64,000 bases of DNA, taken from positions 2,786,868 through 2,850,867 of the forward strand of contig NZ_KB235914.1 of the NCBI RefSeq assembly GCF_000332175.1. Direction: 5' to 3'. The notes beneath the pieces are model-generated. The model was given only the letters and a program-made list of their open reading frames with translations. It was not told the origin of the DNA and searched no databases. The first letter of the stretch is position 1, and each line of letters starts with the position of its first letter. The translations under genes were made by a program, and so were the position numbers. Of the stretch, positions 17,546 through 56,414 are shown in pieces. The DNA is from Pseudanabaena sp. PCC 6802. Lineage in GTDB: Bacteria; Cyanobacteriota; Cyanobacteriia; Pseudanabaenales; Pseudanabaenaceae.

Positions 17546-20344
17546 ATGAGACTCCGACAGAAATGCCTCACAACTATCATCCCGATCGCCGCGATCGCTT
17601 TGCTGTTGTCTAAATTTCTGGTGCATATTCTCACTGAGTCGTGGTGGTTTGAGGCGATCGGTTTCTCGGAAGTGTTTTGGACGCGGCTGACCTGGCAAAT
17701 TCTGGTTTGGGCTGCCACCTTTGTGCTTTACTCCCTATTTCTGTGGGGCAATTACCGAATTGCCCGGTACCAACGCCACAAGGGTAAGGGGCGACTCGTC
17801 CTCGTAGATCGCACGGTGCGCGCCGCTGACGCAAGCGGACTGAAAGTTTATGCCGGGAAGATTGCCAATTATGCCGTTCTGGGATTGATTTTTTTTCTAT
17901 CTATCAGCGCCGCATCGATTAGCAGTCCGAGTTGGGAGACGATTTTAAAGTTCCTGAATGCCACCAATTTCGGCAGTAGCGATCCGATCTTCCAGCAGGA
18001 CATCGGTTTTTATTGCTTTATCATGCCGCTCTACGAGGGCATGCGCAACTGGCTGGGTGCTCTGTTTGGTTGCGCAGCGATCGCGTCCGCTCTGGTTTAC
18101 GGCTTCGACAGCACGATTCCGCCACAGTGGAACTGGCAAAACGTTTTAACCGGCAGAGGCAAATTGCATTTGAGCCTTTTGCTGGCGGCGATCGCCGCGA
18201 TCTTCTGCTTCGACTTCTGGCTGAAGCGCTACGAGTTGCTGTACTCGGCAGGTGGGATTGTCTTCGGGGCTGGCTACACCGATGTCCACGCCAAGCTCTT
18301 TGCTTATAGCGCCTTGAGCGTTCTGCTATCGATCGTGGCTTTTCTGCTGGCGCTCTCAGCCTGGCAGCGCAGCTTTCGATTGCCGATGTTAGGAGTAGGG
18401 GTAACGGTAATTGCTTTAGTAACGCTCGATGGCATTTATCCCTGGTTTCAGCAACAATTCATCGTGTCGCCTAACGAATTGGCGAAAGAAAAGCCCTACA
18501 TCGAGCACAATATTCAATTCACGCAAGCTGCCTATCGCCTGAGCGACGTGCAAAGACAGAGCTATGCTGCCGAAGCAAAACTGAACCGACAGGTGTTGCA
18601 AAACAACCAGCCGACCGTGCGCAACGTCCGCCTGTGGGACTACCGACCCCTCCTCAGTACCTATCGCCAGCTCCAGGAAATTCGGCTTTACTACAAATTT
18701 GCAGGTGTAGATGTCGATCGCTACACCCTGAACGGCAATTACCAGCAGGTGATGCTAACGGCGCGGGAATTGTCCTTTGCCAAAGTGCCCCGCGAGGCAC
18801 AGACCTGGGTTAACCAGCGGCTGAAGTATACGCATGGTTACGGTTTGGTGATGAGTCCGGTCAATCAGATTACCAGCGATGGTTTGCCCGAACTTTATAT
18901 CAAAGATATTCCGCCCTCATCCAGCGTAGACGTACAGGTAAGCCAACCCGCAATTTACTACGGCGAAGAAACGGATGCGTATATTTTTACCGGCACCTCA
19001 ACCCCAGAGTTCGACTATCCGCTCGGCGATGCCAATGCCTTTACTCATTACAACGGCGCGGGCGGCGTACCGATGCCATCAATCTGGCACAGGCTGGCCT
19101 ATGCCTACGATCTGGGCAACATCGAGGTTCTGATTTCCAACTACTTCACCGATCGCTCGCGCATCCATTACTATCGCCAGATTAAGGAACGAGTGGAGCA
19201 TATCGCGCCGTTTTTGCGCTTTGACAGCGATCCTTACCCAGCAGTTATTAATGGCAAGCTGATGTGGCTTGTGGATGCTTATACGGTGAGCGATCGCTAT
19301 CCCTATTCCGAACCCATCGCTCGCTCCATTTCCCAAAGCAAAGATGCCGAGGGCATTCTCAAAGGAGGGAATCTCGATCGCATTTTACGAGGCAATATCA
19401 ACTACATCCGCAACTCCGTCAAAGTAGTAGTGGATGCTTACGATGGCACGGTGCGCTTCTTTGCGATCGACGAAACCGATCCGGTTCTCAAGACCTATGG
19501 CAAAATCTTTCCCCACCTGTTCGAGCCTCGTGCAGGAATTCCACCGGAAATCAAAGCTCATTTTCGCTACCCGCTCGATCTGTTTAAAATCCAGTCGCAA
19601 ATGTATCTGACCTACCACATGAACGATGCGGAGGTGTTCTACAACCGAGAAGATCTGTGGCGTTTCCCGCTCCAGACCTACGAAGGGGGCGAACAGATGA
19701 TGGAGCCTTATTACGCGATCGTGCAGCTACCGAACGAACCGAAAGAGGGATTTATTTTGATCCTGCCATTTACGCCTGCTAATAAGGACAACGCGATCGC
19801 CTGGCTGGCGGCGCGATCGAACGGTCAGGAATACGGCAAATTGTTGCTGTACGAGTTTCCCAAACAAAAACTGGTCTACGGCCCCCGTCAAATTGAGGCG
19901 CGCATCGATCAAGATCCGACGATTTCCCAACAGTTTACGCTCTGGAGTCAGGCAGGTTCCAAGGTGATTCGCGGCGATTTACTGGTGATTCCGATCGCGC
20001 AATCCTTACTTTATGCAGAACCCGTTTATCTGCGGGCGGAGCAGGGCGAATTGCCGGAGTTGAAGCGAGTAATCGTCGCCTATGACAAAGCGGTAGTCAT
20101 GGAGGAAACTTTAGATAAATCTCTGGCTGCTATCTTTGGCAGCGATCGCGGAGAGAAGGAAGCCCCCAGTCCGGTAACGGGCGTGAGTTCCACTCTAGTT
20201 AAATCTGCGCTGGAAACCTATCAGAAAGCGCAGGAAGCTCTGCGTCAGGGTAACTGGGCTGAGTACGGGCGCTATCAGCAAGAGTTAGAAGGTATTTTGT
20301 TAAAATTGAATCAGGAGACTGGAATTGGGAAAAAAGCAGGTTAA
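17546..20344 (+). CDS. UPF0182 family membrane protein
   Basis: 932 aa, the full family length. The N-terminal third carries about seven hydrophobic helices (for example TTIIPIAAIALLLSKFL, YAVLGLIFFLSIS, LLLAAIAAIFCFDFWL). The large remainder is soluble and extracytoplasmic with family motifs NVRLWDYRPLLSTYRQLQ, VMLTARELS, HGYGLVMSP and IYYGEETDAYIFTGT. The extreme C-terminus (ETYQKAQEALRQGNWAEYGRYQQEL) is a helical segment typical of the family. The function is unknown. It is rich in HIP1-type sites, unlike the methyltransferase operon that follows. Confidence 0.92.
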   Translation: MRLRQKCLTTIIPIAAIALLLSKFLVHILTESWWFEAIGFSEVFWTRLTWQILVWAATFVLYSLFLWGNYRIARYQRHKGKGRLVLVDRTVRAADASGLKVYAGKIANYAVLGLIFFLSISAASISSPSWETILKFLNATNFGSSDPIFQQDIGFYCFIMPLYEGMRNWLGALFGCAAIASALVYGFDSTIPPQWNWQNVLTGRGKLHLSLLLAAIAAIFCFDFWLKRYELLYSAGGIVFGAGYTDVHAKLFAYSALSVLLSIVAFLLALSAWQRSFRLPMLGVGVTVIALVTLDGIYPWFQQQFIVSPNELAKEKPYIEHNIQFTQAAYRLSDVQRQSYAAEAKLNRQVLQNNQPTVRNVRLWDYRPLLSTYRQLQEIRLYYKFAGVDVDRYTLNGNYQQVMLTARELSFAKVPREAQTWVNQRLKYTHGYGLVMSPVNQITSDGLPELYIKDIPPSSSVDVQVSQPAIYYGEETDAYIFTGTSTPEFDYPLGDANAFTHYNGAGGVPMPSIWHRLAYAYDLGNIEVLISNYFTDRSRIHYYRQIKERVEHIAPFLRFDSDPYPAVINGKLMWLVDAYTVSDRYPYSEPIARSISQSKDAEGILKGGNLDRILRGNINYIRNSVKVVVDAYDGTVRFFAIDETDPVLKTYGKIFPHLFEPRAGIPPEIKAHFRYPLDLFKIQSQMYLTYHMNDAEVFYNREDLWRFPLQTYEGGEQMMEPYYAIVQLPNEPKEGFILILPFTPANKDNAIAWLAARSNGQEYGKLLLYEFPKQKLVYGPRQIEARIDQDPTISQQFTLWSQAGSKVIRGDLLVIPIAQSLLYAEPVYLRAEQGELPELKRVIVAYDKAVVMEETLDKSLAAIFGSDRGEKEAPSPVTGVSSTLVKSALETYQKAQEALRQGNWAEYGRYQQELEGILLKLNQETGIGKKAG

Positions 20345-20460
20345 GCGAACAGTTGTCTATTACTGGTCTTTGTTGAGCACTTGTGAGTCCAATATCAAAC
20401 AGGTCATATAGGTTACCTTACTGCAGAGTAAAAACAATACTTTATGGGGTATCCTAAGTT

Positions 20461-20505
20461 AATCTCTCTGTTGAGAATGCTCAATTCTAAAACAGAGGGA
20501 GATGA
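20461..20505 (+). promoter_or_regulatory. Hairpin upstream of the methyltransferase operon
   Basis: ATCTCTCTGTT and AACAGAGGGAGAT can pair around GAGAATGCTCAATTCTA, about 30-75 bases before the methyltransferase ATG. It could be a terminator for the upstream gene, though it lacks a T-run, or an operator. Many restriction-type operons are controlled by palindromic sites here, but that is inference. Confidence 0.3.
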
Positions 20506-20537
20506 GCACACTGTAAGCCTTATTGTAGCATAAAGTA

Positions 20538-21563
20538 ATGACATTATTAACATCTATTGACGTTTTTGCTGGTGCAGGCGGACTTAGCTACGGGCTTACA
20601 GTAGAAGGATTCAAGGTGGTTGCTGCGGTAGAAATTGATCCGACATCAGCGAAGAGTTATAACCTTAACCACCCACACACAAATGTTATAGTCAACGATA
20701 TTCGCCAAGTGAGTGGTTCTCAGCTTCTTAAGCAGGCAGGCCTTGCCCCTGGTGAATTGGATTTGCTGACAGGATGCCCACCATGTCAGGCTTTTTCTAC
20801 ACTTCGTACGAGGCGTCGGATACAACAGTTAAACGATCCGAGTAAAGAACTCATTATCGAGATGCTCCGATTGGTACGTTCGATGCGGCCTCGTGCAGTC
20901 ATCGTAGAAAATGTTCCTGGTCTAGCAGGTGATAAGCGCTTTGCTGACTTCCTAATTGGTTTGAAACAAGCCGGATATCAATCTACATACGCAGTTCTCA
21001 ATGCATCTGACTTTGGTGTACCACAGCGGCGCAAGCGGTTAATTCTTATTGCATTGAAGGGAAGAGAGATACCTCCAGGCTGGTCAAGTTATCACTGTGA
21101 GGGTAGAACCGTTAGAGATGCAATCAGTCATCTCGCACCAGCAGGAACTAGTGGAGATATACTCCATGATATTCCTGAAAATCGAACGCCAGCTATGATG
21201 TCGAGAATCAGAGCAACACCTAAAAATGGCGGTAGCCGCAGTGATATACCTTCTGAGTTACAATGCGCCTGCCATGAACGCATTGACGGATTTAAGGATG
21301 TCTATAGTCGAATGGCATGGGATGATGTTTCCCCTACTATTACTAGTGGATGCAATAATCCTTCCCGAGGTCGTTTTCTTCATCCCGAAGAGAATAGAGC
21401 TATAACACTTCGGGAGGCTGCATTACTACAGGCATTCCCACAATGCTACCAGTTCTGTCTTGACCGAGGGAAGGAACATGTTGCGTCCCAAATTGGGAAT
21501 GCTTTCCCCCCAGATATGATTAGGCCAATTGCAAGAGTCATCCGCCACGAGCTATCAGTATGA
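20538..21563 (+). CDS. DNA (cytosine-5) methyltransferase
   Basis: 341 aa, all core m5C methyltransferase motifs present: I (DVFAGAGGLSYGL, residues 8-20, SAM binding), IV (TGCPPCQAFST, nucleophile Cys83), VI (ENVPGL, Glu124), VIII (VPQRRKRLILIA), IX (TVRDAISHL region and LREAALLQAFP) and X (ASQIGNAFPPDMIRPIAR). It should be active. The target-recognition region between VIII and IX is short, about 150 residues, so the recognition site may be small. The stop overlaps the next start (ATGA). The operon has no HIP1 octamer and is AT-richer than its neighbours, suggesting recent acquisition. No conventional restriction endonuclease is adjacent. Confidence 0.93.
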   Translation: MTLLTSIDVFAGAGGLSYGLTVEGFKVVAAVEIDPTSAKSYNLNHPHTNVIVNDIRQVSGSQLLKQAGLAPGELDLLTGCPPCQAFSTLRTRRRIQQLNDPSKELIIEMLRLVRSMRPRAVIVENVPGLAGDKRFADFLIGLKQAGYQSTYAVLNASDFGVPQRRKRLILIALKGREIPPGWSSYHCEGRTVRDAISHLAPAGTSGDILHDIPENRTPAMMSRIRATPKNGGSRSDIPSELQCACHERIDGFKDVYSRMAWDDVSPTITSGCNNPSRGRFLHPEENRAITLREAALLQAFPQCYQFCLDRGKEHVASQIGNAFPPDMIRPIARVIRHELSV

Positions 21564-23296
21564 GTAATAGGAAACCTGTAGATGATCTCTGTAAGAGTGT
21601 TAAAGCTCTTGAACATAAAAAATCCTATATTTGTAGCCTTCGCTTTCCTAACTATCGAAATCTTCGGGTTGACAGCGAGTTACCATTTGATTTCCCAATT
21701 ACAATCTTGCTTGGTCGAAATGGTACAAACAAGAGTTCTATACTTCATGCTCTTTACGGCAGTCCAAGTGGTCAAACTATCGCAGATTTCTGGTTTGAAA
21801 CTGAACTTGACGCAATTCCTACGGAGCGTAATGAACGTAAACAGAGCGTTGTTCATAGATATCGTGGAGATAACGATGAAATTGTTGAGTGTATTAAGGC
21901 TAGGGCTTCACGCGGAACTACAGACCCTGATTATTGGGAACCAATTGTACAAAGGCAGATATATGGTTTCCCATCTAGCGGCACTCGAATTAGTCCCATT
22001 AAACTTAAAGTTACACATTTAGATTTCCGAGGCGAGTTACCCGCTTTTGATAGATACTTCTACTTCCCCGATCCGAAGCATCTTGCAGATCGTGCCCGTT
22101 CCGCAAAAGAGAGTGGAAGGCTGCGCAGAGAGTATCGCAAGCAGGACTATCTTAGACAACGTTCAAGATTGCTAAAAAAAGCAATTGAGGAGGAGGGAAT
22201 TGCACTAACAAACCATGAGTTAGAAGTCTTAAAATATATTCTTGAGCGCGACTATCGTAGTGGAAAGATTCTGAGGCACTCACTATTTCACGGACATGAA
22301 GGATGGACAATACTATTTAAGACAAGTCATCTAAATGATGAGTATTCTGATGCATTTGCTGGCAGTGGTGAGTCAGCCGCTGCGTTGCTTGTACACAATA
22401 TATTTCAAGCTCCGGAAAGATCTTTGATTCTCCTAGACGAACCTGAAACGTCACTTCACCCCCGTGCCCAACAACGAATACTAGAGTTTATAGCTCATCA
22501 AGCTGTGCGGAAGTCACTTCAAGTCGTGATTGCGACACATTCTATCTATCTTGCAAAAAATCTTCCTCAGAATGCGATCCGAGTGCTTGTCCTTGAACAA
22601 GATGGTGCTGTAACAGTGAGAACAGACCTCTCTGCAGATGAAGCCTTACATGAGATTGGGACTCTTCCTGCCGGAAAAACTATTCTGGTTGAAGATGAGC
22701 GAGCAAAACACATTGTTGTTTCAGCTTTAAAGCTAGAGTCAAGTCATGCTTCAAAAGAGTTTCAGGTTTTGGTTCGAGAAGGTGGGACTTCACGGATATA
22801 CCGTGATATTCAAGCATATGTCAACAGTGACAGGAGAGATGTATTTGTTCTTTTTGATGGAGATAATAAGCCTAAAGAGCTTATTCCAGAAGATGGAGTA
22901 CTTCCCCAAGGGAAGAATGACCTATGTAAACTGATTCGGTTACTTACACGCGGAAATGATGAAAACGGTCCTAAGCTTGATTTTGTAGATGAAGACGAGA
23001 TGACACGCTATATTGGCTTTTTAAGAAGATATGTACATTTTTTGCCTGAGCTAACTCCTGAGGCACTTGTTTGGGATGACGATATAGCCAAAGAAATCTT
23101 TGGTGAAGATCTACCACAGGAAGTTTTACAAGAGCAAGATTTCAAAGAAAGAATTCGTATCCTTGCAGAGAAAACTCCGGGTTTGGATGATGATGCCATT
23201 TTCAAAAATCTTCTTAACAAATTATTGAAGGGCGAAAGCGAGCGTAAGTCAGCTCTCATAGAAGTTATTAGTAATATTCGATCTGCCAGTAGCTAA
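21560..23296 (+). CDS. OLD-type AAA ATPase with TOPRIM nuclease domain
   Basis: 578 aa. The N-terminal ABC/SMC-type ATPase half has the P-loop ILLGRNGTNKSS (residues 50-60), a signature-like GSGESAAALLVHN (268-280), Walker B LILLDEPETSLHPRAQQ (289-305) and the switch His327 in ATHSIYLA. The second half is a TOPRIM fold: ILVEDERAKHIVV (Glu378) and VLFDGDNKP (Asp433, Asp435). This is the domain order of OLD-family nucleases. The P-loop is odd: the Gly normally before Lys58 is Asn57. Its start overlaps the methyltransferase stop, so they form one translationally coupled unit, probably a defence module in which methylation or DNA state gates the nuclease. That role is inference. Confidence 0.85.
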   Translation: MSNRKPVDDLCKSVKALEHKKSYICSLRFPNYRNLRVDSELPFDFPITILLGRNGTNKSSILHALYGSPSGQTIADFWFETELDAIPTERNERKQSVVHRYRGDNDEIVECIKARASRGTTDPDYWEPIVQRQIYGFPSSGTRISPIKLKVTHLDFRGELPAFDRYFYFPDPKHLADRARSAKESGRLRREYRKQDYLRQRSRLLKKAIEEEGIALTNHELEVLKYILERDYRSGKILRHSLFHGHEGWTILFKTSHLNDEYSDAFAGSGESAAALLVHNIFQAPERSLILLDEPETSLHPRAQQRILEFIAHQAVRKSLQVVIATHSIYLAKNLPQNAIRVLVLEQDGAVTVRTDLSADEALHEIGTLPAGKTILVEDERAKHIVVSALKLESSHASKEFQVLVREGGTSRIYRDIQAYVNSDRRDVFVLFDGDNKPKELIPEDGVLPQGKNDLCKLIRLLTRGNDENGPKLDFVDEDEMTRYIGFLRRYVHFLPELTPEALVWDDDIAKEIFGEDLPQEVLQEQDFKERIRILAEKTPGLDDDAIFKNLLNKLLKGESERKSALIEVISNIRSASS

Positions 23297-23440
23297 TTGT
23301 CATTGCATATCTTGACACAATTTGGAAATCAAATTGAAGAAGCATCTTAGCCTGTTTGTCCACAGAAGCACGATCGCTTTCCTGGTAGTTTTTGGTATTG
23401 GCAAACGAGAGATCTCTCCAACGGTTACACAACTAGACAA

Positions 23441-23660
23441 CTAACCCGCCATCTTGAGCCATCCAAAAACTCGATCCGCTGTAAGTTCTAGTTCGATTTC
23501 TGCCATTGTTGGCAAGCGGCGGGACGCATCCCAAAGGGAATCGCTACCTTGAAATAATTCTGGTTGCTGATTTGGCAAGAAGACCAATATGCTGCAATCG
23601 TCCAATCGAGTAGCGCTCCAGCAAATCGGTCATAGAAAAGCTATCTAGTTCGGTAGTCAT
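23441..23660 (-). pseudogene. Decayed small gene, left direct-repeat copy
   Basis: The minus strand starts with ATG at 23660 (TTELDSFSMTDLLERYSIGR, which resembles a small DNA-binding head). After indels it ends with PTMAEIELELTADRVFGWLKMAG at 23441. The last 160 bp match 24441-24580 as a direct repeat, with this copy carrying an extra GC-rich insert (CCCTTTGGGATGCGTCCCGC). The two copies bracket the RelE/HigA-type pair. The rest of 23297-23440 shows nothing recognisable. Confidence 0.5.
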
Positions 23661-23734
23661 TGTCTTGGTTGTCCAGCGGACAATGGACGCTATGATTAAG
23701 ATGATATATTAATGTCGGATTTGACATAATAGTT

Positions 23735-24064
23735 ATGGCTGACACCAAGCCGCTGGTCTGGTTGAGTGGATCGGTAAAAACACCGCCTTTCTCAAAGGCC
23801 GCAAGGTTGGAGGCTGGCTTTTTACTACGGCAGTTGCAACGCGGTAGAAGTTTAGGACTACCATCTTCTCGCCCTATGCCTGGTATTGGCGCTCGCTGCC
23901 ACGAGCTGCGAATTAACGATGAAGATAAGACATGGCGAATTATCTACCGCATTGACGAAGATCGCATTGTTATTGTGGATGTATTTGCCAAGACAACCAA
24001 CAAAACGCCTAAGTCAGTTATTGATGTTTGTAAGCAACGGTTGAAGCGATATGACGAGGTATAG
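23735..24064 (+). CDS. RelE/HigB-type toxin
   Basis: 109 aa. The ParE/RelE-like fold is indicated by AARLEAGFLLRQLQRG, SRPMPGIGARCHELRI, TWRIIYRIDEDRIVIVDVF and the C-terminal KTTNKTPKSVIDVCKQRLKRYDE. This arrangement is typical of the HigB-type toxins encoded before their antitoxin; such toxins cut mRNA at the ribosome. The antitoxin gene starts three bases after its stop. Toxin-first order supports the HigBA class. Confidence 0.88.
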   Translation: MADTKPLVWLSGSVKTPPFSKAARLEAGFLLRQLQRGRSLGLPSSRPMPGIGARCHELRINDEDKTWRIIYRIDEDRIVIVDVFAKTTNKTPKSVIDVCKQRLKRYDEV

Positions 24065-24066
24065 GT

Positions 24067-24393
24067 ATGAACGATGACAAACTCGATCGCCTGGTGGCCG
24101 ATGGCTGGCAGGTGGGAACGGTAGCCGAATTTTTAGGATTATCTCCAGAGGAGGAGATGTTTATCGAATTGAAACTGATTCTAAGCGATCGCCTCAAACA
24201 GTTGCGGGAGAGTCAACATCTCACCCAAAAAGCCCTAGCGAAGCGCATTGAATCTAGCCAATCGCGGGTAGCAAAAATGGAAGCAGGCGATCCATCTGTA
24301 TCGATGGACTTATTGGTGCGATCGCTGCTGTCGTTAGGAGCTACACCCAAAGATATTGCTGAAGCGATCGCAATGGGTTCTTGTGATGAGTGA
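24067..24393 (+). CDS. HigA-type XRE antitoxin
   Basis: 108 aa. An N-terminal segment (VGTVAEFLGLSPEEEMFIELKLIL) is followed by a Cro/CI helix-turn-helix: RLKQLRESQHLTQKALAKRI, SSQSRVAKMEAGDPSVSMDLLVRSLLSLG in shorter overlapping pieces. It should bind the toxin and repress the operon through the HTH. Two HIP1 sites lie within the gene, so it is older in this genome than the methyltransferase operon. Confidence 0.9.
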   Translation: MNDDKLDRLVADGWQVGTVAEFLGLSPEEEMFIELKLILSDRLKQLRESQHLTQKALAKRIESSQSRVAKMEAGDPSVSMDLLVRSLLSLGATPKDIAEAIAMGSCDE

Positions 24394-24705: not shown

Positions 24706-25365
24706 ATGCAAGGTTTAGCTGTTACTGAAACTATCAATACGATCGCTGAAGCGGAAAGACGATTTGGTCTGAGCCGCAGTACATTTAAGGATTTTTTTAC
24801 AGAATGGCGCGACCAATTGCCTGATATTAATTCTAGCGATCGCACCAACCTGGAAACCCTATGGCAGCGATACATTTACCATCGCTCTAGCGGTCAGTTA
24901 TTAGAAAGTACGGTAATGCTATTACTAGTTTCGCCACTACTGACCATTGCAGGCTTATACGATCCGCCCTTTTTGATTAAAGCGGAAGAATCCGTGCAGA
25001 TCGCAGTATCAGACAGCGAAGCAACTTTGCAAGGTCGTATAGATCTGCTGGTTTTATGCGATCGCCTTTGGGTAGTTGTTTTAGAGTCAAAGAAAACCAT
25101 GCTATCCGTCTGGTCGGCACTGCCACAAACTCTTGCCTACTTGATGGCTAATTCCAATAGCGACAGTACGCATCCCGCAGGGAATTGCCCTACTTTTGGA
25201 ATGTTGACTAATGGAGACGAAATAGTGTTTGTCAAACTAGAAGGCAAATGCTATGCCATGTCACAAGTATTTTCCCCTCTGGTTACACAGAGCGAACTAG
25301 AAGTTACCTGTCAAGTTCTGCGCAAAATTGCAGAATCAGTTGCATGTGACTTGCAGAAAGCATAG
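24706..25365 (+). CDS. Solitary HsdR-N-like PD-(D/E)XK protein
   Basis: 219 aa. The N-terminal 45 residues resemble a small HTH (AEAERRFGLSRSTFKDFF). The core resembles the N-terminal nuclease domain of type I restriction R subunits: a strand pair ending in GRIDLLVLCDRLWVVVLESKKT, where Asp (in GRID) and Glu-x-Lys (ESK) form a PD-(D/E)XK site, followed by ALPQTLAYLM and FGMLTNGDEIVFVKL. No helicase, M or S subunit is nearby. Such short proteins are frequent in cyanobacteria; a nuclease activity is likely but unproven. Confidence 0.7.
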   Translation: MQGLAVTETINTIAEAERRFGLSRSTFKDFFTEWRDQLPDINSSDRTNLETLWQRYIYHRSSGQLLESTVMLLLVSPLLTIAGLYDPPFLIKAEESVQIAVSDSEATLQGRIDLLVLCDRLWVVVLESKKTMLSVWSALPQTLAYLMANSNSDSTHPAGNCPTFGMLTNGDEIVFVKLEGKCYAMSQVFSPLVTQSELEVTCQVLRKIAESVACDLQKA

Positions 25366-30794: not shown

Positions 30795-32278
30795 CTGGAG
30801 TTTAGACTAAAAGGCAACAAGAAGCATCTCGCTAGATAGAAACTAGCGAGAGAGAGGATAAAAGGGAAGAAGTTGAGCTAAGCAGTTGCAGCGGAAGCTT
30901 TTTTGAGGGGCTTGGCATAGCGTTTTTTGACAGTAGGATAACGAATCCGTTGGGTTCGTTTTTTCCCAAGAGGCCAACCTGGAGACTTACCGCGAGGTTT
31001 AGGGTCAGGGGAAGGAGAGCCAATCCTGACCAAAACTAAAGCAAAAGCATTTGCAACTCGACCAGGAGACAATTTAGTCATCGGTTTCTGCCAAGGCAGA
31101 GGAGAGTCTTGGACAAGTTCACGAGCGAGCCACAATTGCCAAGTAAGTAAAGGCATCAAGTCCGACCAAGTCTCCATCTGAGCAGGGGTAGAAAGCTGAG
31201 GGATTGTCCAATGGAGACGTTGACGCACCAAGCGATACCAATGCTCAATGGCAAATCTGCGCAGATATTTTTGCCATACCTCACTCAAGATTGGCTCGTC
31301 TTTAGCGACCCAAATCAACCACAGGGGTTTCGATTCAGGCATATCAAGACGTTCGACCAGAATGAGTGTAAAGGGATGGTCTGCGGCTTGCTTTAAGTGC
31401 AGGTTTGGCCATCGACGAATTTGCAATCGTCCCAGTTTAGGCTCTGCAATTGTGATGTCTGCTTGGGGAATAGACCAAGTGTCAGAGTCTTTGAGGCTAA
31501 ATTTCTCTCCATGCTTATGGGGTCGCCCATGCCCCTCGTAATCCTTTGGGGCATGATACAGAACCCGGTTGGGGCGTAGCCTGAGCAGCTTGATACACGG
31601 GATGTCTGCTGTTTGCTGCAAAAATGGTGCGCACCCATACTCGCCATCCCCCAGGAAAAGCACAGTCCCAGGAATTTCCGCACAAACCAAGCGTAACTGA
31701 CTAGCGGCTTTCTGAATCGGGTTCTCGAAACTGGTGATCCGCTCATGCCGCAACGGTAAGGCAAAACTCCCTTCTGACTCTGGAATCCAGGCAATTGTGC
31801 TGTATCCTTGCCCCACCGTAACAGGTTTGCTTCCTACTCCCGGTTGAGGTTGATGTTCGTAGGTGCGTTCTTGTAATGTCACCGCATAGGGACGCGACCA
31901 GGCTGTATGGTCGCCCGCCAATATCGTCACCTCTGCTGCCGGCATTTGCTGTATGTATTGCTTCATCAAGTCTTCACGTGGAGGATGACTATCTTGCAGT
32001 GCTTCATAGATACTCGACCACTCCCTCCGAAATAATGGGCTTAACGAAAGTTCCACAAACGATGAAACACTCCGACTCGTCAGTACCGCATCCATCAAGT
32101 CGAACAGCGCATCTCTCCCGTTCCCTATAATTTCGTACGTGTACTTGCGAAATTGCTCAAGTTTATCCAAACTAATCATGATGAAGCTGTTGATTTTATA
32201 GTCTTTTCAGCTTCCATCATCAAGCGGTCAGTCTGCAATGGCTGGCTGCTTTTTACCACTTTTTAGTCTAAACTCCAG
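30795..32278 (-). mobile_element. 1484-bp IS, copy 2 (inside the STM4011-type gene)
   Basis: It has the same termini as copy 1. The target duplication is TTTCTA (30789-30794 and 32279-32284), and reconstruction of the host gene confirms the borders. The transposase is identical to copies 1 and 3. Confidence 0.93.
30878..32179 (-). CDS. DDE transposase of the 1484-bp IS (copy 2)
   Basis: 433 aa, residue-for-residue the same as the product at 11247-12548. It is transcribed against the interrupted radical SAM gene, so read-through from the host operon would run antisense to it. Confidence 0.88.
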   Translation of the reverse strand: MISLDKLEQFRKYTYEIIGNGRDALFDLMDAVLTSRSVSSFVELSLSPLFRREWSSIYEALQDSHPPREDLMKQYIQQMPAAEVTILAGDHTAWSRPYAVTLQERTYEHQPQPGVGSKPVTVGQGYSTIAWIPESEGSFALPLRHERITSFENPIQKAASQLRLVCAEIPGTVLFLGDGEYGCAPFLQQTADIPCIKLLRLRPNRVLYHAPKDYEGHGRPHKHGEKFSLKDSDTWSIPQADITIAEPKLGRLQIRRWPNLHLKQAADHPFTLILVERLDMPESKPLWLIWVAKDEPILSEVWQKYLRRFAIEHWYRLVRQRLHWTIPQLSTPAQMETWSDLMPLLTWQLWLARELVQDSPLPWQKPMTKLSPGRVANAFALVLVRIGSPSPDPKPRGKSPGWPLGKKRTQRIRYPTVKKRYAKPLKKASAATA

Positions 32279-50077: not shown

Positions 50078-51568
50078 ATGTCTGCAACTACAGGTATGCA
50101 ACCCCCTATTCACTTTGGTACCGATGGCTGGCGTGGTGTGATCGCGGATGAGTTTACGTTTGCGCGGCTGACCGCCATTGCGCCTGTAGCTGCACGAGTG
50201 CTGGCCGATACATTCGGTGCGTCTACATCCAGTAATACTGTAGTCGTTGGTTACGATCGCCGCTTCCTATCGCCAGAATTTGCGAAAAGCGTTGCCGACT
50301 CGCTCTGTGCGGCGGGGTTTGACGTGCAGTTAGCGCAATCTTTTGCTCCTACCCCCGCTTTTAGTTGGGCGGCCTATAACCAGAAGGCATTGGGTGCCTT
50401 AGTCATCACTGCCAGTCACAATCCGCCAGCCTATTCCGGTCTGAAAATTAAAGGTGCGTTCGGTGGCTCGGTGGCTCCTGCCATAACTAAGCAGGTGGAG
50501 TCCATTCTTAATAATGCCAATAGCAATGCACCTGAGGCGCGATCGCCAGGTAAGCTGACTGTATTCGATCCGTGGGCGAGCTACTGCGAGGAATTGCGCT
50601 CTAAGGTCGATCTGGCGGCAATTCGCAAGGCTATTCTCAATGGTGAGTTAGTCGTATTTACTGACGTGATGCACGGTGCAGCGGCAACTGGCCTGGAGCA
50701 GATTCTGGAAATACCATCCGATCGCAGTGGTGCCCCCAGTGGCTTGAAGGAAATTAATGCCAGCGCCGATCCGTTATTTGGCGGTAACTCGCCGGAGCCA
50801 TTACCGCGCTATATCCAGGAATTGCTGAGACAAATGAGGGCTTACCGCGCCGAACATCCCCAGCAGTTACTGGTCGGGTTCGTGTTTGATGGCGATAGCG
50901 ATCGCATAGCGGCTGTGGATGGCGATGGCAATTTCCTGAGCACGCAAAATCTCATTCCCATCCTGCTAGAGCATTTATCGCAGCGACGGGGCTTGCAGGG
51001 CGAGTTTATTAAAACGATTAGCGGCTCGGACTTGATGCCCAGGGTGGCGGCATTGTACGGCCTGCCAGTCTATGAAACTCCGGTGGGATTTAAGTACGTT
51101 GCCGATCGCATGTTGGCGGGTGACAAGGTGCTGCTAGGCGGCGAGGAGTCGGGTGGCATCGGCTACAGTACCCATATACCCGAGCGCGACGCACTGCTGT
51201 CGGCGTTGTATTTACTAGAAGCACTCGCTCTAACCAAGCAAGATCTGAGTCAGCTTTATCGAGATTTGCAGGTCAAAACAGGATTCTTTTCGCATTACGA
51301 TCGTATCGATAAGCATCTATCTAGTTTGGAAGCCAAAAACCGCCTCGTGCAGTATTTGCAAGCTACTCCTTTGCAGGAGATCGATGGGCGTAAGGTCGTG
51401 GATGTCAATGCGATCGACGGCTTTAAGTTCCGCCTGGAGGATGATAGCTGGCTGTTGGTGAGGTTTAGCGGCACCGAACCCGTATTGCGACTTTATTGCG
51501 AAGCGGCGACATCCGAGATCGTGGATCGCACTTTGGCATGGATATCTAATTGGGTGGAACAGTTTTAA
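50078..51568 (+). CDS. Phosphoglucomutase / phosphomannomutase family protein
   Basis: 496 aa, four-domain alpha-D-phosphohexomutase. The start IHFGTDGWRGVIADEF is typical. The phosphoserine is Ser113 in VITASHNPPAYSG, the Mg site is FVFDGDSDRIAA, the sugar-specificity loop is LGGEESGGIGY and the phosphate-binding loop is RFSGTEPVLRLY. It interconverts the 1- and 6-phosphates of glucose or mannose; which one is not decided by sequence. An alternative start is Met7. Its last 38 coding bases are duplicated at the far side of the NACHT island. Confidence 0.93.
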   Translation: MSATTGMQPPIHFGTDGWRGVIADEFTFARLTAIAPVAARVLADTFGASTSSNTVVVGYDRRFLSPEFAKSVADSLCAAGFDVQLAQSFAPTPAFSWAAYNQKALGALVITASHNPPAYSGLKIKGAFGGSVAPAITKQVESILNNANSNAPEARSPGKLTVFDPWASYCEELRSKVDLAAIRKAILNGELVVFTDVMHGAAATGLEQILEIPSDRSGAPSGLKEINASADPLFGGNSPEPLPRYIQELLRQMRAYRAEHPQQLLVGFVFDGDSDRIAAVDGDGNFLSTQNLIPILLEHLSQRRGLQGEFIKTISGSDLMPRVAALYGLPVYETPVGFKYVADRMLAGDKVLLGGEESGGIGYSTHIPERDALLSALYLLEALALTKQDLSQLYRDLQVKTGFFSHYDRIDKHLSSLEAKNRLVQYLQATPLQEIDGRKVVDVNAIDGFKFRLEDDSWLLVRFSGTEPVLRLYCEAATSEIVDRTLAWISNWVEQF

Positions 51569-51570
51569 TC
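51531..51570 (+). repeat. 40-bp direct repeat, left copy
   Basis: The segment begins CTTTGGCATGGATATC and ends GGAACAGTTTTAATC. It is identical over 40 bp to 56573-56612. It spans the 3' end of the phosphohexomutase gene, including its stop TAA (51566-51568). The flanking bases differ on both sides. Confidence 0.95.
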
Positions 51571-51593
51571 CCTCCCCTGATATCGAGATATAT

Positions 51594-51645
51594 TGCCTGG
51601 CGATTGAAATCGCGGCTATACAAACGAAGTCCGCCTGTGCGGACT
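51594..51645 (+). repeat. REP-like double hairpin, copy 1
   Basis: Two hairpins, GGCGATTGAAATCGC and AGTCCGCCTGTGCGGACT, joined by GGCTATACAAACGA. The following GGGATTTAGTAT resembles an IS630-type terminus, so this copy may sit in a truncated MITE of the kind seen at 51685. Confidence 0.75.
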
Positions 51646-51684
51646 GTCAGAAGAGGGGTTAACAGATCGGGATTTAGTATAATA

Positions 51685-51798
51685 CCAAATCCGCATTAAT
51701 TACCCCTCTAATTGCCTGGCGACTGGAAGTCGCTGCTACACAAACAAAGTCTGCCTGCGCAGACTCCAAGAAAAGGGGGGTAGGAAACCAGGATTTGG
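51685..51798. repeat. MITE with IS630-type ends and a REP hairpin core (114 bp)
   Basis: The left end CCAAATCCGCATTAATTACC is identical to the right terminus of the IS630-type element at 7612-7619 and inward. The right end (GTAGGAAACCAGGATTTGG) is its partial inverse. TA flanks both sides (51683-51684, 51799-51800). The interior is a REP hairpin pair at 51713-51765 (GGCGACTGGAAGTCGC, AGTCTGCCTGCGCAGACT). It is probably mobilised in trans by the IS630 transposase. Confidence 0.75.
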
Positions 51799-51864
51799 TA
51801 TAAAACCTATTGAGATAAATTGACCCGCAGTCCGTAGATTTACCTGCGGATTGCGGGCATATCG

Positions 51865-52023
51865 TTACTTGGCTCGTATTAGTTCCCTGATCGTTAGATA
51901 GATGAATAATAGAAGAAGCAAACCATCAGATGTGATGAGTTGGAAATTAGGAGGGATATTGCCCCCAGGAGGAGATGGCAACGATACGGTGTTTGTTACC
52001 TGGATGTAATTGTTTGTCTGCAT
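51865..52023 (-). CDS. Small membrane protein, 52 aa
   Basis: ATG at 52023 preceded by AAGGAG at good spacing. The product starts MQTNNYIQVTNTV, has a Pro/Gly-rich segment (LPSPPGGNIPPNF) and one hydrophobic helix (GLLLLLFIYLTI), and ends RELIRAK. It is divergent from the NACHT gene, about 155 bp away. I do not recognise it. The ribosome binding site and helix make it plausible; it could be a membrane-acting partner, which is speculation. Confidence 0.5.
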   Translation of the reverse strand: MQTNNYIQVTNTVSLPSPPGGNIPPNFQLITSDGLLLLLFIYLTIRELIRAK

Positions 52024-52225
52024 ATTTATGTTGCTCCTTTGCTTGACCAGGTTTAATCTAAGTCAAATCAATCTGAAGTACAGTCCCTGTCCTGTGCATA
52101 GAATGTTGGACTTGTGTGTAACTTTGTTGGACTTGTGTTGATGCGGTTAAAATAGACGTAACTTTTAGGGTTGGTTTATGGCAACAGGCAGGTCGCTCTC
52201 GGCAACAACAAGCGGTATTGAAAAA

Positions 52226-53709
52226 CTGGAGTTTAGACTAAAAAGTGGTAAAAAGCAGCCAGCCATTGCAGACTGACCGCTTGATGATGGAAGCTGAAAA
52301 GACTATAAAATCAACAGCTTCATCATGATTAGTTTGGATAAACTTGAGCAATTTCGCAAGTACACGTACGAAATTATAGGGAACGGGAGAGATGCGCTGT
52401 TCGACTTGATGGATGCGGTACTGACGAGTCGGAGTGTTTCATCGTTTGTGGAACTTTCGTTAAGCCCATTATTTCGGAGGGAGTGGTCGAGTATCTATGA
52501 AGCACTGCAAGATAGTCATCCTCCACGTGAAGACTTGATGAAGCAATACATACAGCAAATGCCGGCAGCAGAGGTGACGATATTGGCGGGCGACCATACA
52601 GCCTGGTCGCGTCCCTATGCGGTGACATTACAAGAACGCACCTACGAACATCAACCTCAACCGGGAGTAGGAAGCAAACCTGTTACGGTGGGGCAAGGAT
52701 ACAGCACAATTGCCTGGATTCCAGAGTCAGAAGGGAGTTTTGCCTTACCGTTGCGGCATGAGCGGATCACCAGTTTCGAGAACCCGATTCAGAAAGCCGC
52801 TAGTCAGTTACGCTTGGTTTGTGCGGAAATTCCTGGGACTGTGCTTTTCCTGGGGGATGGCGAGTATGGGTGCGCACCATTTTTGCAGCAAACAGCAGAC
52901 ATCCCGTGTATCAAGCTGCTCAGGCTACGCCCCAACCGGGTTCTGTATCATGCCCCAAAGGATTACGAGGGGCATGGGCGACCCCATAAGCATGGAGAGA
53001 AATTTAGCCTCAAAGACTCTGACACTTGGTCTATTCCCCAAGCAGACATCACAATTGCAGAGCCTAAACTGGGACGATTGCAAATTCGTCGATGGCCAAA
53101 CCTGCACTTAAAGCAAGCCGCAGACCATCCCTTTACACTCATTCTGGTCGAACGTCTTGATATGCCTGAATCGAAACCCCTGTGGTTGATTTGGGTCGCT
53201 AAAGACGAGCCAATCTTGAGTGAGGTATGGCAAAAATATCTGCGCAGATTTGCCATTGAGCATTGGTATCGCTTGGTGCGTCAACGTCTCCATTGGACAA
53301 TCCCTCAGCTTTCTACCCCTGCTCAGATGGAGACTTGGTCGGACTTGATGCCTTTACTTACTTGGCAATTGTGGCTCGCTCGTGAACTTGTCCAAGACTC
53401 TCCTCTGCCTTGGCAGAAACCGATGACTAAATTGTCTCCTGGTCGAGTTGCAAATGCTTTTGCTTTAGTTTTGGTCAGGATTGGCTCTCCTTCCCCTGAC
53501 CCTAAACCTCGCGGTAAGTCTCCAGGTTGGCCTCTTGGGAAAAAACGAACCCAACGGATTCGTTATCCTACTGTCAAAAAACGCTATGCCAAGCCCCTCA
53601 AAAAAGCTTCCGCTGCAACTGCTTAGCTCAACTTCTTCCCTTTTATCCTCTCTCTCGCTAGTTTCTATCTAGCGAGATGCTTCTTGTTGCCTTTTAGTCT
53701 AAACTCCAG
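52226..53709 (+). mobile_element. 1484-bp IS, copy 3 (inside the NACHT gene)
   Basis: Same ends as the other copies but inserted in the opposite orientation. The target duplication is GAAAAA (52220-52225 and 53710-53715). Of the three target sites two are T/G followed by A5. Confidence 0.93.
52325..53626 (+). CDS. DDE transposase of the 1484-bp IS (copy 3)
   Basis: 433 aa, identical to the products at 11247-12548 and 30878-32179. It is co-directional with the interrupted NACHT gene, so transcription from the IS could read into the downstream NACHT portion. Confidence 0.88.
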   Translation: MISLDKLEQFRKYTYEIIGNGRDALFDLMDAVLTSRSVSSFVELSLSPLFRREWSSIYEALQDSHPPREDLMKQYIQQMPAAEVTILAGDHTAWSRPYAVTLQERTYEHQPQPGVGSKPVTVGQGYSTIAWIPESEGSFALPLRHERITSFENPIQKAASQLRLVCAEIPGTVLFLGDGEYGCAPFLQQTADIPCIKLLRLRPNRVLYHAPKDYEGHGRPHKHGEKFSLKDSDTWSIPQADITIAEPKLGRLQIRRWPNLHLKQAADHPFTLILVERLDMPESKPLWLIWVAKDEPILSEVWQKYLRRFAIEHWYRLVRQRLHWTIPQLSTPAQMETWSDLMPLLTWQLWLARELVQDSPLPWQKPMTKLSPGRVANAFALVLVRIGSPSPDPKPRGKSPGWPLGKKRTQRIRYPTVKKRYAKPLKKASAATA

Positions 53710-55424
53710 GAAAAAGCTAGAGTAGCTTTAACTGATAAAGCCTGGAGTCAGGAACACTTAGCAGAGGAAGCCGATGTATCTCGCTCGACAGTAATTAATT
53801 TCTTTGGTGGTAAGGCCGTAGATCGCCAACTTTTCGTTAATATCTGCAAAGTGCTGGAGGTGGACTGGCAGGAAATCTGCGGGCAGAAGGAGGCTAATGC
53901 TCCGGTGATGGGCGATGGAGAAACACCTACTGAGATCGAGATCGAGGCGCTCGTGCGAGAGGTACGGCAGAAATGCGAAGGCGATATCCAGACGCGGTGT
54001 GGGACGATGCGGGTGCTGGATATGTCATGCCCGATTGGGTTGGGCGATATCTACACCAACGTCAATATCCTGGAGAAGATCTCGGCAAAAAGTCGTAAGA
54101 GTATTGAGGAAATGCTCCAAGGCTTCGACCTGGAGAATTTCGACCGCTTCGGTCTGGGCGGCATCCAAAAGACAATACCGGGGCTAGAAGCAGTTGCCGC
54201 GCACTCGAAGCTGATAATTTTGGGCAAGCCGGGGGCGGGTAAAACTACATTCTTGAAACATCTGGCGATGCAATGCCATGCCGGACGCTTGCAAGCGGAT
54301 CGCGTGCCTGTTTTTATTTCGCTGAAGGATTTTGCCGAAAGCCCAGGCCAACCGAGTTTGTTGGAGTTTATCGCCGCACGCTGGGCGGGATGCGGCGTTG
54401 GCGATCGGCAGGCAGCAGAAAAAATCTTGGCGGCGGGTAGAGCGTTAATTTTATTAGATGGTTTGGATGAGGTGCGGGAAGCCGATAGTAAGCGAGTCTT
54501 GACGGAGATAAGGGAAGAATCTATAAGATTTCGCAACAGTAACTTTGTCGTCACCTGCCGCATTGCTGCCAGGGAATACGCGTTCGAGCAGTTTACGGAG
54601 GTGGAGGTCGCGGATTTCAGCGACGAGCAGATCGCCGAATTTGCAGGGAAGTGGTTCGCCCAAAAACAAGTAACTGCTAAAAGCTTTATCGATAAGCTGA
54701 AAGAAAGCAAACCAATTAAAGAATTGGCGACCAACCCTCTATTACTGACGCTGCTTTGCCTCGTGTTTGAGGAATCGGGCAATTTCGCACCCAATCGTTC
54801 CGAACTGTATAAAGAGGGATTGGATATACTGCTAAAAAAATGGAGTGCCAAGCGCGGCATCGAACGCGACTGGGCTTACAAATCCCTTTCCGTGCAAAAG
54901 CGGGAGGATATGCTGAGTCAAATTGCCCTGACAACCTTCGCGGCGGGGGATTATTTCTTCAAGCAAAAACAGGTCGAAGGTTATATCAAAGACTATATCC
55001 GCAATACTCTCAATGCTAACACCGACGAAGAGTTGCTAAACCTTGATAGCGAAGGGGTATTGAAAGCGATCGAAGCACAACACGGTTTGTTGGTGGAAAG
55101 AGCCAGCGGCATTTATTCGTTTTCCCATTTGACGTTTCACGAGTATCTGACGGCAAGAGAAATTGTCAACAATCCGGATCCGCAGGAATTGGCGAAAGTT
55201 CAAATGGAACTGGTGAGCCATATTACTGAAAAGCGCTGGCGCGAAGTGTTTTTGCTGGCGGTGGGGATGTCGCGCAGTGCCGACTACCTGCTGCAACTGA
55301 TGAAACAGAAAATCGACAGTCTGTTAGCCACAGATCTTAAATTACAAGATTTTTTGGCATGGGTCTGGGAAAAGTCCAATTCGATAGAGAAATATAAACC
55401 TGCCGCCGTCAGAGCCTTCTACTT

Positions 55425-55555
<131 letters not shown>

Positions 55556-55915
55556 ATATCGAGCCAGGCTCTGAATTTTACCACGCGCTGCAAGCGCTAA
55601 GGGATCGGTTACCCGATCCCAAAGGAGATCGGAAAACCTTCAGACCATGGTGGGAGGGCGACGGAAAAGTTTGGATTGAGGAGTTCAGACAAGTGCTAAT
55701 TAAATATCGCAATATCGGCCACGACTGGCAGTTTAGCGATACCCAGAAGGATTTGCTGAAGCAGTATTACGATGCGAATAAGCTGCTGGTAGATTGTCTT
55801 AAAAGCGATTGTTATGTCAGCAAACCTGTGCGACGGAAGATTGAGGATACTTTGCTGTTACCGATCGCTATGATAGAAAAATACGAGGAACCGGGCGATT
55901 GAAATCTATACAAGG

Positions 55916-55967
55916 TGCCTGGCGATTGAAATCGCGACTATACAGACGAAGTCCGCCTGCGCGGACT
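55916..55967 (+). repeat. REP-like double hairpin, copy 3
   Basis: GGCGATTGAAATCGC and AGTCCGCCTGCGCGGACT joined by GACTATACAGACGA. A half-copy (GGGCGATTGAAATC) overlaps the NACHT stop codon just before it (55893 onward). Confidence 0.75.
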
Positions 55968-56003
55968 AGGAGGGATGGGGTGTTTTTGGATGGAAGATAG
56001 ATT

Positions 56004-56414
56004 CTATTTAGGGGGTAGTTCCCAGGTTGGAATAATCGATTTTTGCTGATGGTGGGATTCTTGGTTTCGGATATAATTTGCTATGCGATCGATGTCTGCA
56101 TAGCCAACAGTAAAAGCACCATAGCTGCCTTGCCATTTAAAAAAGCGATCGCATTGCGTTGCATTTATGAGGTGAGAAGAACTTCCTTTTATTTGTTTCA
56201 TCAAATCGGAAATGCTCAAGGTAGGCGGGAAATCGGTCAATAAATGGATATGGTCGGCAATCCCACCCACAGCGATCGCTTGACACCCTAACTGCTGGCA
56301 TTCTCAAATAATTACTGCGCAGGTTATTTCTCGAATCTCTGGCACGAGGAGAGGCAACCTATCCCATGTTGCCCAAACGCAATGAACGTACAACTTGGTA
56401 AAATTCGCTCTCAT
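56004..56414 (-). pseudogene. REP-associated tyrosine transposase (Y1/HUH), single nonsense codon
   Basis: 137 codons from ATG 56414. The start MRANFTKLYVHCVWATWDRL is typical of the family. The HUH motif is GGIADHIHLLTDFPPT, followed by LMKQIKGSSSHLIN, FFKWQGSYGAFTVG and IANYIRNQESHH. The frame is open except for TGA at 56304-56306, where a single C-to-T change of CGA would create it. REP hairpins in opposite orientation lie on both sides, as expected for this transposase type. Confidence 0.85.

Follow-up and report, generated by a model that had tools for sequence, protein, structure and literature searches.

A mobile gene pair for a C5-cytosine DNA methyltransferase and an OLD-type ATPase/TOPRIM protein, with a possible restriction-modification-like role

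Do a C5-cytosine (m5C) DNA methyltransferase gene and the OLD-type ATPase/TOPRIM gene that overlaps it form one functional unit, and might the OLD protein stand there in place of a restriction endonuclease? OLD nucleases have been known for decades, and one question about them is how they discriminate between self and foreign DNA. The pair examined here lies in a stretch of 64,000 nucleotides from Pseudanabaena sp. PCC 6802 (the window), and an earlier note made from the sequence alone had described it as two genes overlapping by ATGA. The open reading frames, their lengths, and the overlap were confirmed, and the locus, in positions of the window, is as follows.

17546-20344: UPF0182 gene, the upstream neighbor of the pair
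20538..21563 (stop codon included), + strand: C5-cytosine DNA methyltransferase, 341 amino acids (aa), PF00145
21560..21563, + strand: ATGA stop/start overlap, read from the sequence
21560..23296, + strand: OLD-type ABC-ATPase/TOPRIM protein, 578 aa, AAA_21/AAA_15
23735-24393: HigBA-like toxin-antitoxin pair, a HigB-like (Gp49/DUF891) toxin and then an HTH antitoxin, just downstream
24706-25365: solitary 219-aa nuclease-like protein with weak HSDR_N / PD-(D/E)xK similarity, downstream

The ATGA overlap would couple translation of the two genes, and the same -4 overlap was present at L008, L009, L013, L022, and L054. Toxin-antitoxin, HSDR_N-like, and transposase genes follow the pair. The adjoining defense-like genes pointed out earlier are indeed there, in that HigBA-like and HSDR_N-like genes lie nearby, but the association is weak and they fall outside the conserved unit; they were rejected as members of it because homology to other copies stops at 23288. 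The HigBA-like pair was absent beside other copies of the cassette.

The OLD protein matched the AAA_21/AAA_15 domains and carries the ABC-ATPase motifs GxNGxxKS (Walker A), GSGE (signature), and LLDEPETS (Walker B), together with a D-loop and H327. The Walker B and TOPRIM acidic motifs had been picked out earlier, and the ATPase and TOPRIM motifs proved to be invariant or nearly so in 70 homologs, variable x positions aside. Their positions, all on the + strand, are given below.

21704..21745, + strand: Walker A region, about aa 49-62, LLGRNGTNKSSIL; G52, N54, G55, and K58 invariant in 70 homologs
22349..22462, + strand: ABC signature AFAGSGE (from aa 265) to Walker B/D-loop LLDEPETSLHP (to aa 301)
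22691..22696, + strand: TOPRIM acidic pair E378-D379, invariant (70/70)
22856..22864, + strand: TOPRIM DGD motif D433-G434-D435 (70/70, 70/70, and 69/70)
23060..23062, + strand: E501, candidate metal-B ligand by analogy to Bp OLD E508 (PMC7049728), invariant (70/70)
23144..23146, + strand: K529, candidate transition-state lysine by analogy to Bp OLD K562 (PMC7049728), invariant (70/70)

D293, E294, S298, and H300 were likewise invariant in the 70 homologs. Compared with Ts OLD, whose metal-A residues are E377/D431/D433, and with Bp OLD (PMC7049728), the TOPRIM metal-A site is complete (E378, D433, and D435). E501 and K529, matched to Bp OLD E508 and K562 by position and conservation rather than by superposition, may be the counterparts of those residues; T499, part of the S/T-x-E metal-B motif of OLD, was found in 37 of the 70 homologs. 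The acidic residue at the metal-B E+4 position (Ts OLD D381) is replaced by alanine, both here (A382) and in 68/70 homologs, and the invariant D379 may substitute for it. An AlphaFold model built on a 63-sequence alignment had a mean pLDDT of 91, and its best PDB fold matches in Foldseek were Thermus scotoductus OLD (6p74, E 5.8e-13) and GajA (8sm3, E 3.8e-11), at 13-17% sequence identity and a whole-chain TM of about 0.35, which is low probably because the domain orientation differs. The OLD gene is under purifying selection (dN/dS about 0.16-0.20), and the protein has no evident target-recognition domain. Its residues and predicted fold are those of an ATP-gated, metal-dependent TOPRIM nuclease, the activity that we infer for it.

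The methyltransferase is a DNA_methylase (PF00145, E 2.8e-61; PADLOC MTase_II, E 1.3e-85) whose motifs FAGAGG, PPCQ (with the catalytic Cys83), ENV, QRR, and IGNA are all intact, and its dN/dS of about 0.1 against the nearest homologs also indicates purifying selection. Across 57 methyltransferases from many phyla, the putative target-recognition region (window residues about 216-285) was conserved like the catalytic half (mean majority frequency, 0.62 versus 0.53), which suggests that the family shares the same or a similar target site. When two Escherichia coli versions of the pair, A and B, were compared, no covarying specificity signal between methyltransferase and OLD was detected, because OLD diverges most in its C-terminal half and the target-recognition region of the methyltransferase is conserved. 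The methyltransferase subfamily is less faithful to the pairing than OLD is, and cyanobacterial relatives with 43% identity have other partners. Related cyanobacterial C5-methyltransferases were seen with a UvrD-helicase/PD(D/E)xK fusion (L116, 2815-6848) and with a GmrSD_N (DUF262) protein plus a 240-aa protein (L117 and L118). One kind of methyltransferase thus seems to recruit several different effectors.

The absence of the HIP1 octamer (GCGATCGC) had earlier been read as a sign that the pair was recently acquired. HIP1 is indeed absent: the window has 97 copies, compared to 1.35 expected by shuffling, which marks it as cyanobacterial, and the pair has 0, with about 4.2 expected in 2.76 kb at window density (Poisson P about 0.015). 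The weight given to HIP1 did not stand, since the window has one HIP1-free gap longer than that around the pair (20142-24185), and we rejected this absence as sole proof of acquisition. The longest gap (about 50898-56145) holds a 683-aa protein with a striking ARDLARARA... repeat, by eye resembling a NACHT NTPase, and a transposase identical to that at 30878-32179. Recent acquisition is better supported by other measurements. GC3 is 0.35 for the methyltransferase gene and 0.30 for the OLD gene versus 0.50 to 0.62 in most of the longer neighbors, and the maximum of tetranucleotide composition in the window falls at the pair. The pair has close homologs in named cyanobacteria. The copies in Kastovskya, Phormidesmis, and a Leptolyngbyaceae MAG match its DNA at 80-84% identity from 20526-20536 to 23287-23288, and the sequences on either side are unrelated. 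With homology confined to the two genes, the mobile unit is the two-gene cassette itself, and the earlier description of a stand-alone pair was borne out.

The pair was also found in 18 of 5,426 complete E. coli genomes, in two versions (8 genomes with L062 as the query and 10 with L103); a search of E. coli genomes with L065 gave no match. In E. coli it is carried by lambdoid prophages, in a slot flanked by holin and antiterminator Q, and runs opposite to the phage genes; other strains have different cargo there. The window protein had no match among INPHARED phages, and plasmids gave only partial matches of 25-44%, with a methyltransferase in 0 of the 3 examined.

Whether the two genes belong together was addressed by scanning with a profile of OLD only, which returned 54 loci from a GTDB-based genome collection and 27 from IMG/VR. 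Pairing was not selected for, since the profile contained no methyltransferase. Wherever there was DNA on the relevant side (78 loci), a C5-methyltransferase lay within 5 kb of OLD; the three other loci end at a contig edge. Further viral scans, run with subclade profiles, added 12 in-family loci, each with a methyltransferase, for a combined 90/90 checkable loci, in which the methyltransferase was usually adjacent, in either order. Among checkable loci, the ATPase family never occurred without a methyltransferase, routine occurrence without one being the possibility that the earlier note had set against its own reading. In 49 of 67 full-length cases, the two genes were separated by 150 nucleotides or less, 31 of them OLD first, 15 methyltransferase first, and 3 convergent; L059, counted as OLD first, fits the methyltransferase-first group better, given its second methyltransferase. 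The tree shows several switches of gene order. The search for the two genes in unrelated bacteria, proposed beforehand as a check, revealed conserved co-occurrence across at least 15 phyla, including Cyanobacteriota, Planctomycetota, Verrucomicrobiota, Gemmatimonadota, Bacteroidota, Bacillota, Pseudomonadota, Spirochaetota, Fibrobacterota, Acidobacteriota, and Patescibacteria.

By comparison, none of 10 loci of the nearest OLD relatives outside the family (HEC-04-like cyanobacterial proteins, plasmid matches, and L007) had a methyltransferase in the 1 to 4 kb around each that were checked. These relatives scored 92 to 159 bits on the family HMM versus at least 560 bits for intact members, a gap of about 400 bits. 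Pairwise divergences of OLD and methyltransferase were correlated (Pearson r, 0.65; the highest of 2000 permutations was 0.14). Six loci (L015, L036, L057, L061, L088, and L182) had a broken OLD gene with an intact methyltransferase gene and none had the reverse, an asymmetry with a P of about 0.06 if breaks are proportional to gene length and with L015 a low-coverage contig; such a bias would be expected of an effector that is toxic when unaccompanied. At L036 and L182, the OLD gene is interrupted by an insert of roughly 0.7 to 0.9 kb and the methyltransferase is intact; the OLD gene of L047 is intact. Taken together, these results strongly support the conclusion that the two genes are one functional unit.

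At 35 of 61 nonredundant loci, by reading of the gene lists, only the methyltransferase and OLD were present, with no other restriction genes. At the others, about 26/61, the pair was accompanied by additional genes, including HpaII, LlaJI-like, or Mrr endonucleases, Vsr, GHKL/MORC-like ATPases, and a UvrD-PD(D/E)xK protein, and because endonucleases are among them, OLD can be an addition to a restriction-modification (RM) system and not a substitute. One larger layout was methyltransferase-GHKL/Ymh-OLD-Vsr. The Bacteroidota variant (L019, L023, L026, L035, L037, L041, L042, L050, and L060) consisted of the methyltransferase, a double-GHKL HEF_HK protein of ~995 aa, a receiver-domain protein, OLD, and often Vsr, so that the RM-type operon seems to contain a two-component-like module. 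The layout in Clostridia was Vsr-methyltransferase-BsaWI-like-HpaII-OLD; at L052, L055, and L058, the operon of an HpaII-type endonuclease also encodes Vsr, two methyltransferases, a BsaWI-like protein, and OLD. Fibrobacter loci had LlaJI-like and Mrr neighbors, larger loci of Pseudomonadota had UvrD-PDDEXK, and at L044 an Mrr-type protein adjoins OLD.

Our first choice among the explanations for this unit, to which we give an even chance, is that it is a mobile two-gene RM-like defense cassette in which the m5C mark is a license for self and OLD is the effector. The methyltransferase would mark a fixed site in host DNA with m5C, and unmarked DNA, such as that of an incoming phage or plasmid, would be the target of OLD or the trigger for its attack. 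We infer that the nuclease depends on methylation in this way; modification would then be the self-license, and OLD would replace, or in larger loci supplement, the restriction endonuclease, a replacement that is plausible for the 35 loci with no other restriction genes. This RM-like explanation is favored by the pairing in every checkable locus and in none of the outside relatives, the correlated divergence, the limits of homology at the two genes, and the carriage as prophage cargo, as well as by the invariant motifs, the fold match to OLD and GajA, and purifying selection on both genes. It is also favored because the larger variants carry RM or RM-associated genes (HpaII, LlaJI-like, Mrr, Vsr, and GHKL/MORC-like ATPases) and because all six broken loci lost OLD and kept the methyltransferase. 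Conversely, OLD/TOPRIM effectors elsewhere may act by abortive infection or on RNA targets, as in PARIS, where AriB cleaves tRNA; this and the alanine at E+4 argue against the RM-like explanation, as do the want of an evident target-recognition domain in OLD and the retention of a true endonuclease at some loci. The more general proposal, a phylum-spanning RM type whose ATP-gated OLD/TOPRIM nuclease senses that its partner's m5C is missing and to which accreted forms add GHKL, receiver-domain, Vsr, and endonuclease genes, is put forward tentatively, at somewhat less than an even chance.

The strongest rival, since OLD in the larger loci joins systems already equipped with nucleases or ATPases, is that OLD is a guard: it would be restrained while the methyltransferase, or the RM system to which it belongs, is working, and inhibition or bypass by a phage would release a suicidal TOPRIM effector acting on tRNA or host DNA. 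PARIS, in which AriA/AriB senses Ocr, provides a model for this. A backup role would explain the roughly 26/61 loci with a nuclease or ATPases of their own better than replacement does, TOPRIM-linked OLD-ABC ATPases have been proposed as backup suicidal effectors in BREX (PMC12839542), and the asymmetry of the broken genes fits a guard equally well. However, in 35 of the 61 loci the methyltransferase would be the only thing to guard, a C5 enzyme being the partner in every case; we regard a guard role as unlikely, if a serious contender. Distinctly more doubtful is the idea that a class-1-like OLD exclusion nuclease and a methyltransferase protecting the carrier, by an antirestriction or replication mark, are linked for mobility and functionally uncoupled. 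Solitary methyltransferases are common in prophages, where this pair too is carried, and the nearest relatives of OLD act alone, HEC-04 being reported as active as a single gene (PMC12111858). Such uncoupling is hard to reconcile with obligate pairing in chromosomes across many phyla, with the translational overlaps and the correlated divergence, and with the unpaired state of all 10 outside relatives.

A modification-dependent, type IV-like enzyme that attacks m5C or otherwise modified DNA, with the methyltransferase as a regulator or decoy, has the Mrr-type protein adjoining one relative (L044) in its favor and is very improbable, in that a resident m5C methyltransferase, intact at every locus examined, would make host DNA the target. 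The slightest chance of all goes to unrelated neighbors in a defense island, as the toxin-antitoxin, HSDR_N-like, and transposase genes downstream and the roughly 9-10 C5 methyltransferases of the host genome might suggest, since adjacency in every checkable family member (90/90) and in no sister family (0/10) rules this out.

If the RM-like explanation is right, the pair would represent RM logic with an ATP-driven TOPRIM effector and would explain some apparently orphan m5C methyltransferases. An OLD family that is apparently obligately coupled to a self-marking methyltransferase offers a testable answer to the self/foreign question for at least one OLD class, and its presence in E. coli prophages makes it accessible to standard phage assays.

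Among known systems, class 1 OLD (P2 Old and Thermus OLD) and GajA join an ABC ATPase to a TOPRIM domain as the window OLD does, with the metal-A residues (E378, D433, and D435) and the candidates E501 and K529 in common, and differ at the acidic E+4 residue, Ala here. The partners also differ: class 1 OLD has none, class 2 has GajB, and the family described here has an obligate C5-methyltransferase. A stand-alone class 1 OLD was thus ruled out by the methyltransferase at all 90 checkable loci, and Gabija was ruled out by the genes next downstream, which are HigB/HigA-like and not a UvrD-like GajB. UvrD-PDDEXK neighbors were found among the OLD loci only at L034 and L046, and upstream: there, a UvrD-helicase/PD(D/E)xK (AddB/Cas4-like) gene (3015-5924 in L034) lies directly upstream of OLD and the methyltransferase, an arrangement reminiscent of Gabija plus a methyltransferase. 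Retron I-B (class 3) was rejected, with no reverse transcriptase among the neighboring proteins scanned with Pfam, as was PARIS (class 4), since TOPRIM is fused here but AriAB matches the ATPase core only (47 bits, residues 283-352). PARIS (AriA/AriB), the retron I-B ATPase-TOPRIM, WonAB, and PD-T4-4 all use an OLD-like ABC ATPase and a nuclease module in phage defense, as may the pair; however, PARIS and WonAB have the nuclease on a separate gene, the retron needs a reverse transcriptase/noncoding RNA, and none has a described DNA methyltransferase partner.

PADLOC recognized no more of the pair than a generic MTase_II plus a partial HEC-04, and the best PHROGs family for OLD, phrog_3940, has no annotated function. 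HEC-04 / IbfA, the best PADLOC match of OLD (E 6e-32), shares the VED TOPRIM motif and the ATPase core, but only residues 214-442 align, and HEC-04 lacks both a neighboring methyltransferase and the family motifs DPDYWE and AFDxYFY. HEC-04 has been reported to defend against T4 and T5 (PMC12111858); membership of the window OLD in that family was ruled out by the partial match, the linkage to a methyltransferase here, and the distance of about 400 bits on the family HMM. The window methyltransferase resembles DruM2 of Druantia type II (E 9e-82), and that system was also ruled out, since only OLD stands beside the methyltransferase and DruF, DruG, and DruE are absent from the unit.

The pair resembles type II RM systems in its C5-methyltransferase with intact motifs, its small mobile operon, and, in relatives, a frequent Vsr, and differs from them in that the minimal unit has an ATP-dependent OLD protein and no recognizable restriction endonuclease. 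No cognate endonuclease was found within the homology-defined limits of the unit, and the E. coli copies are flanked by phage genes. MORC/paraMORC RM-like loci, with neighborhoods of a GHKL ATPase, cytosine methylase, and Vsr (Iyer, Abhiman and Aravind 2008, PMC2292703), resemble the larger loci here (methyltransferase, GHKL ATPase, OLD, and Vsr); that account, however, does not name OLD/TOPRIM as a component, and the minimal unit here has no GHKL gene. No methyltransferase partner is mentioned in the published accounts of OLD classes 1 to 4 and class 5, and the pair is named nowhere in the literature and databases covered, which did not extend to the likeliest prior art, Krishnan et al. 2020 (NAR gkaa726). 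The earlier note was right that this is not a standard RM type, but it was not the first to place such ATPases in that setting: OLD-ABC ATPases coupled to nucleases in RM-like conflict systems had been reported before, according to PMC12839542, citing Krishnan et al. 2020. The pair, best read as an RM-like or RM-guarding system, is effectively a methyltransferase-linked class of OLD beyond the five in those accounts, within a general idea of OLD in RM-like systems that is already known.
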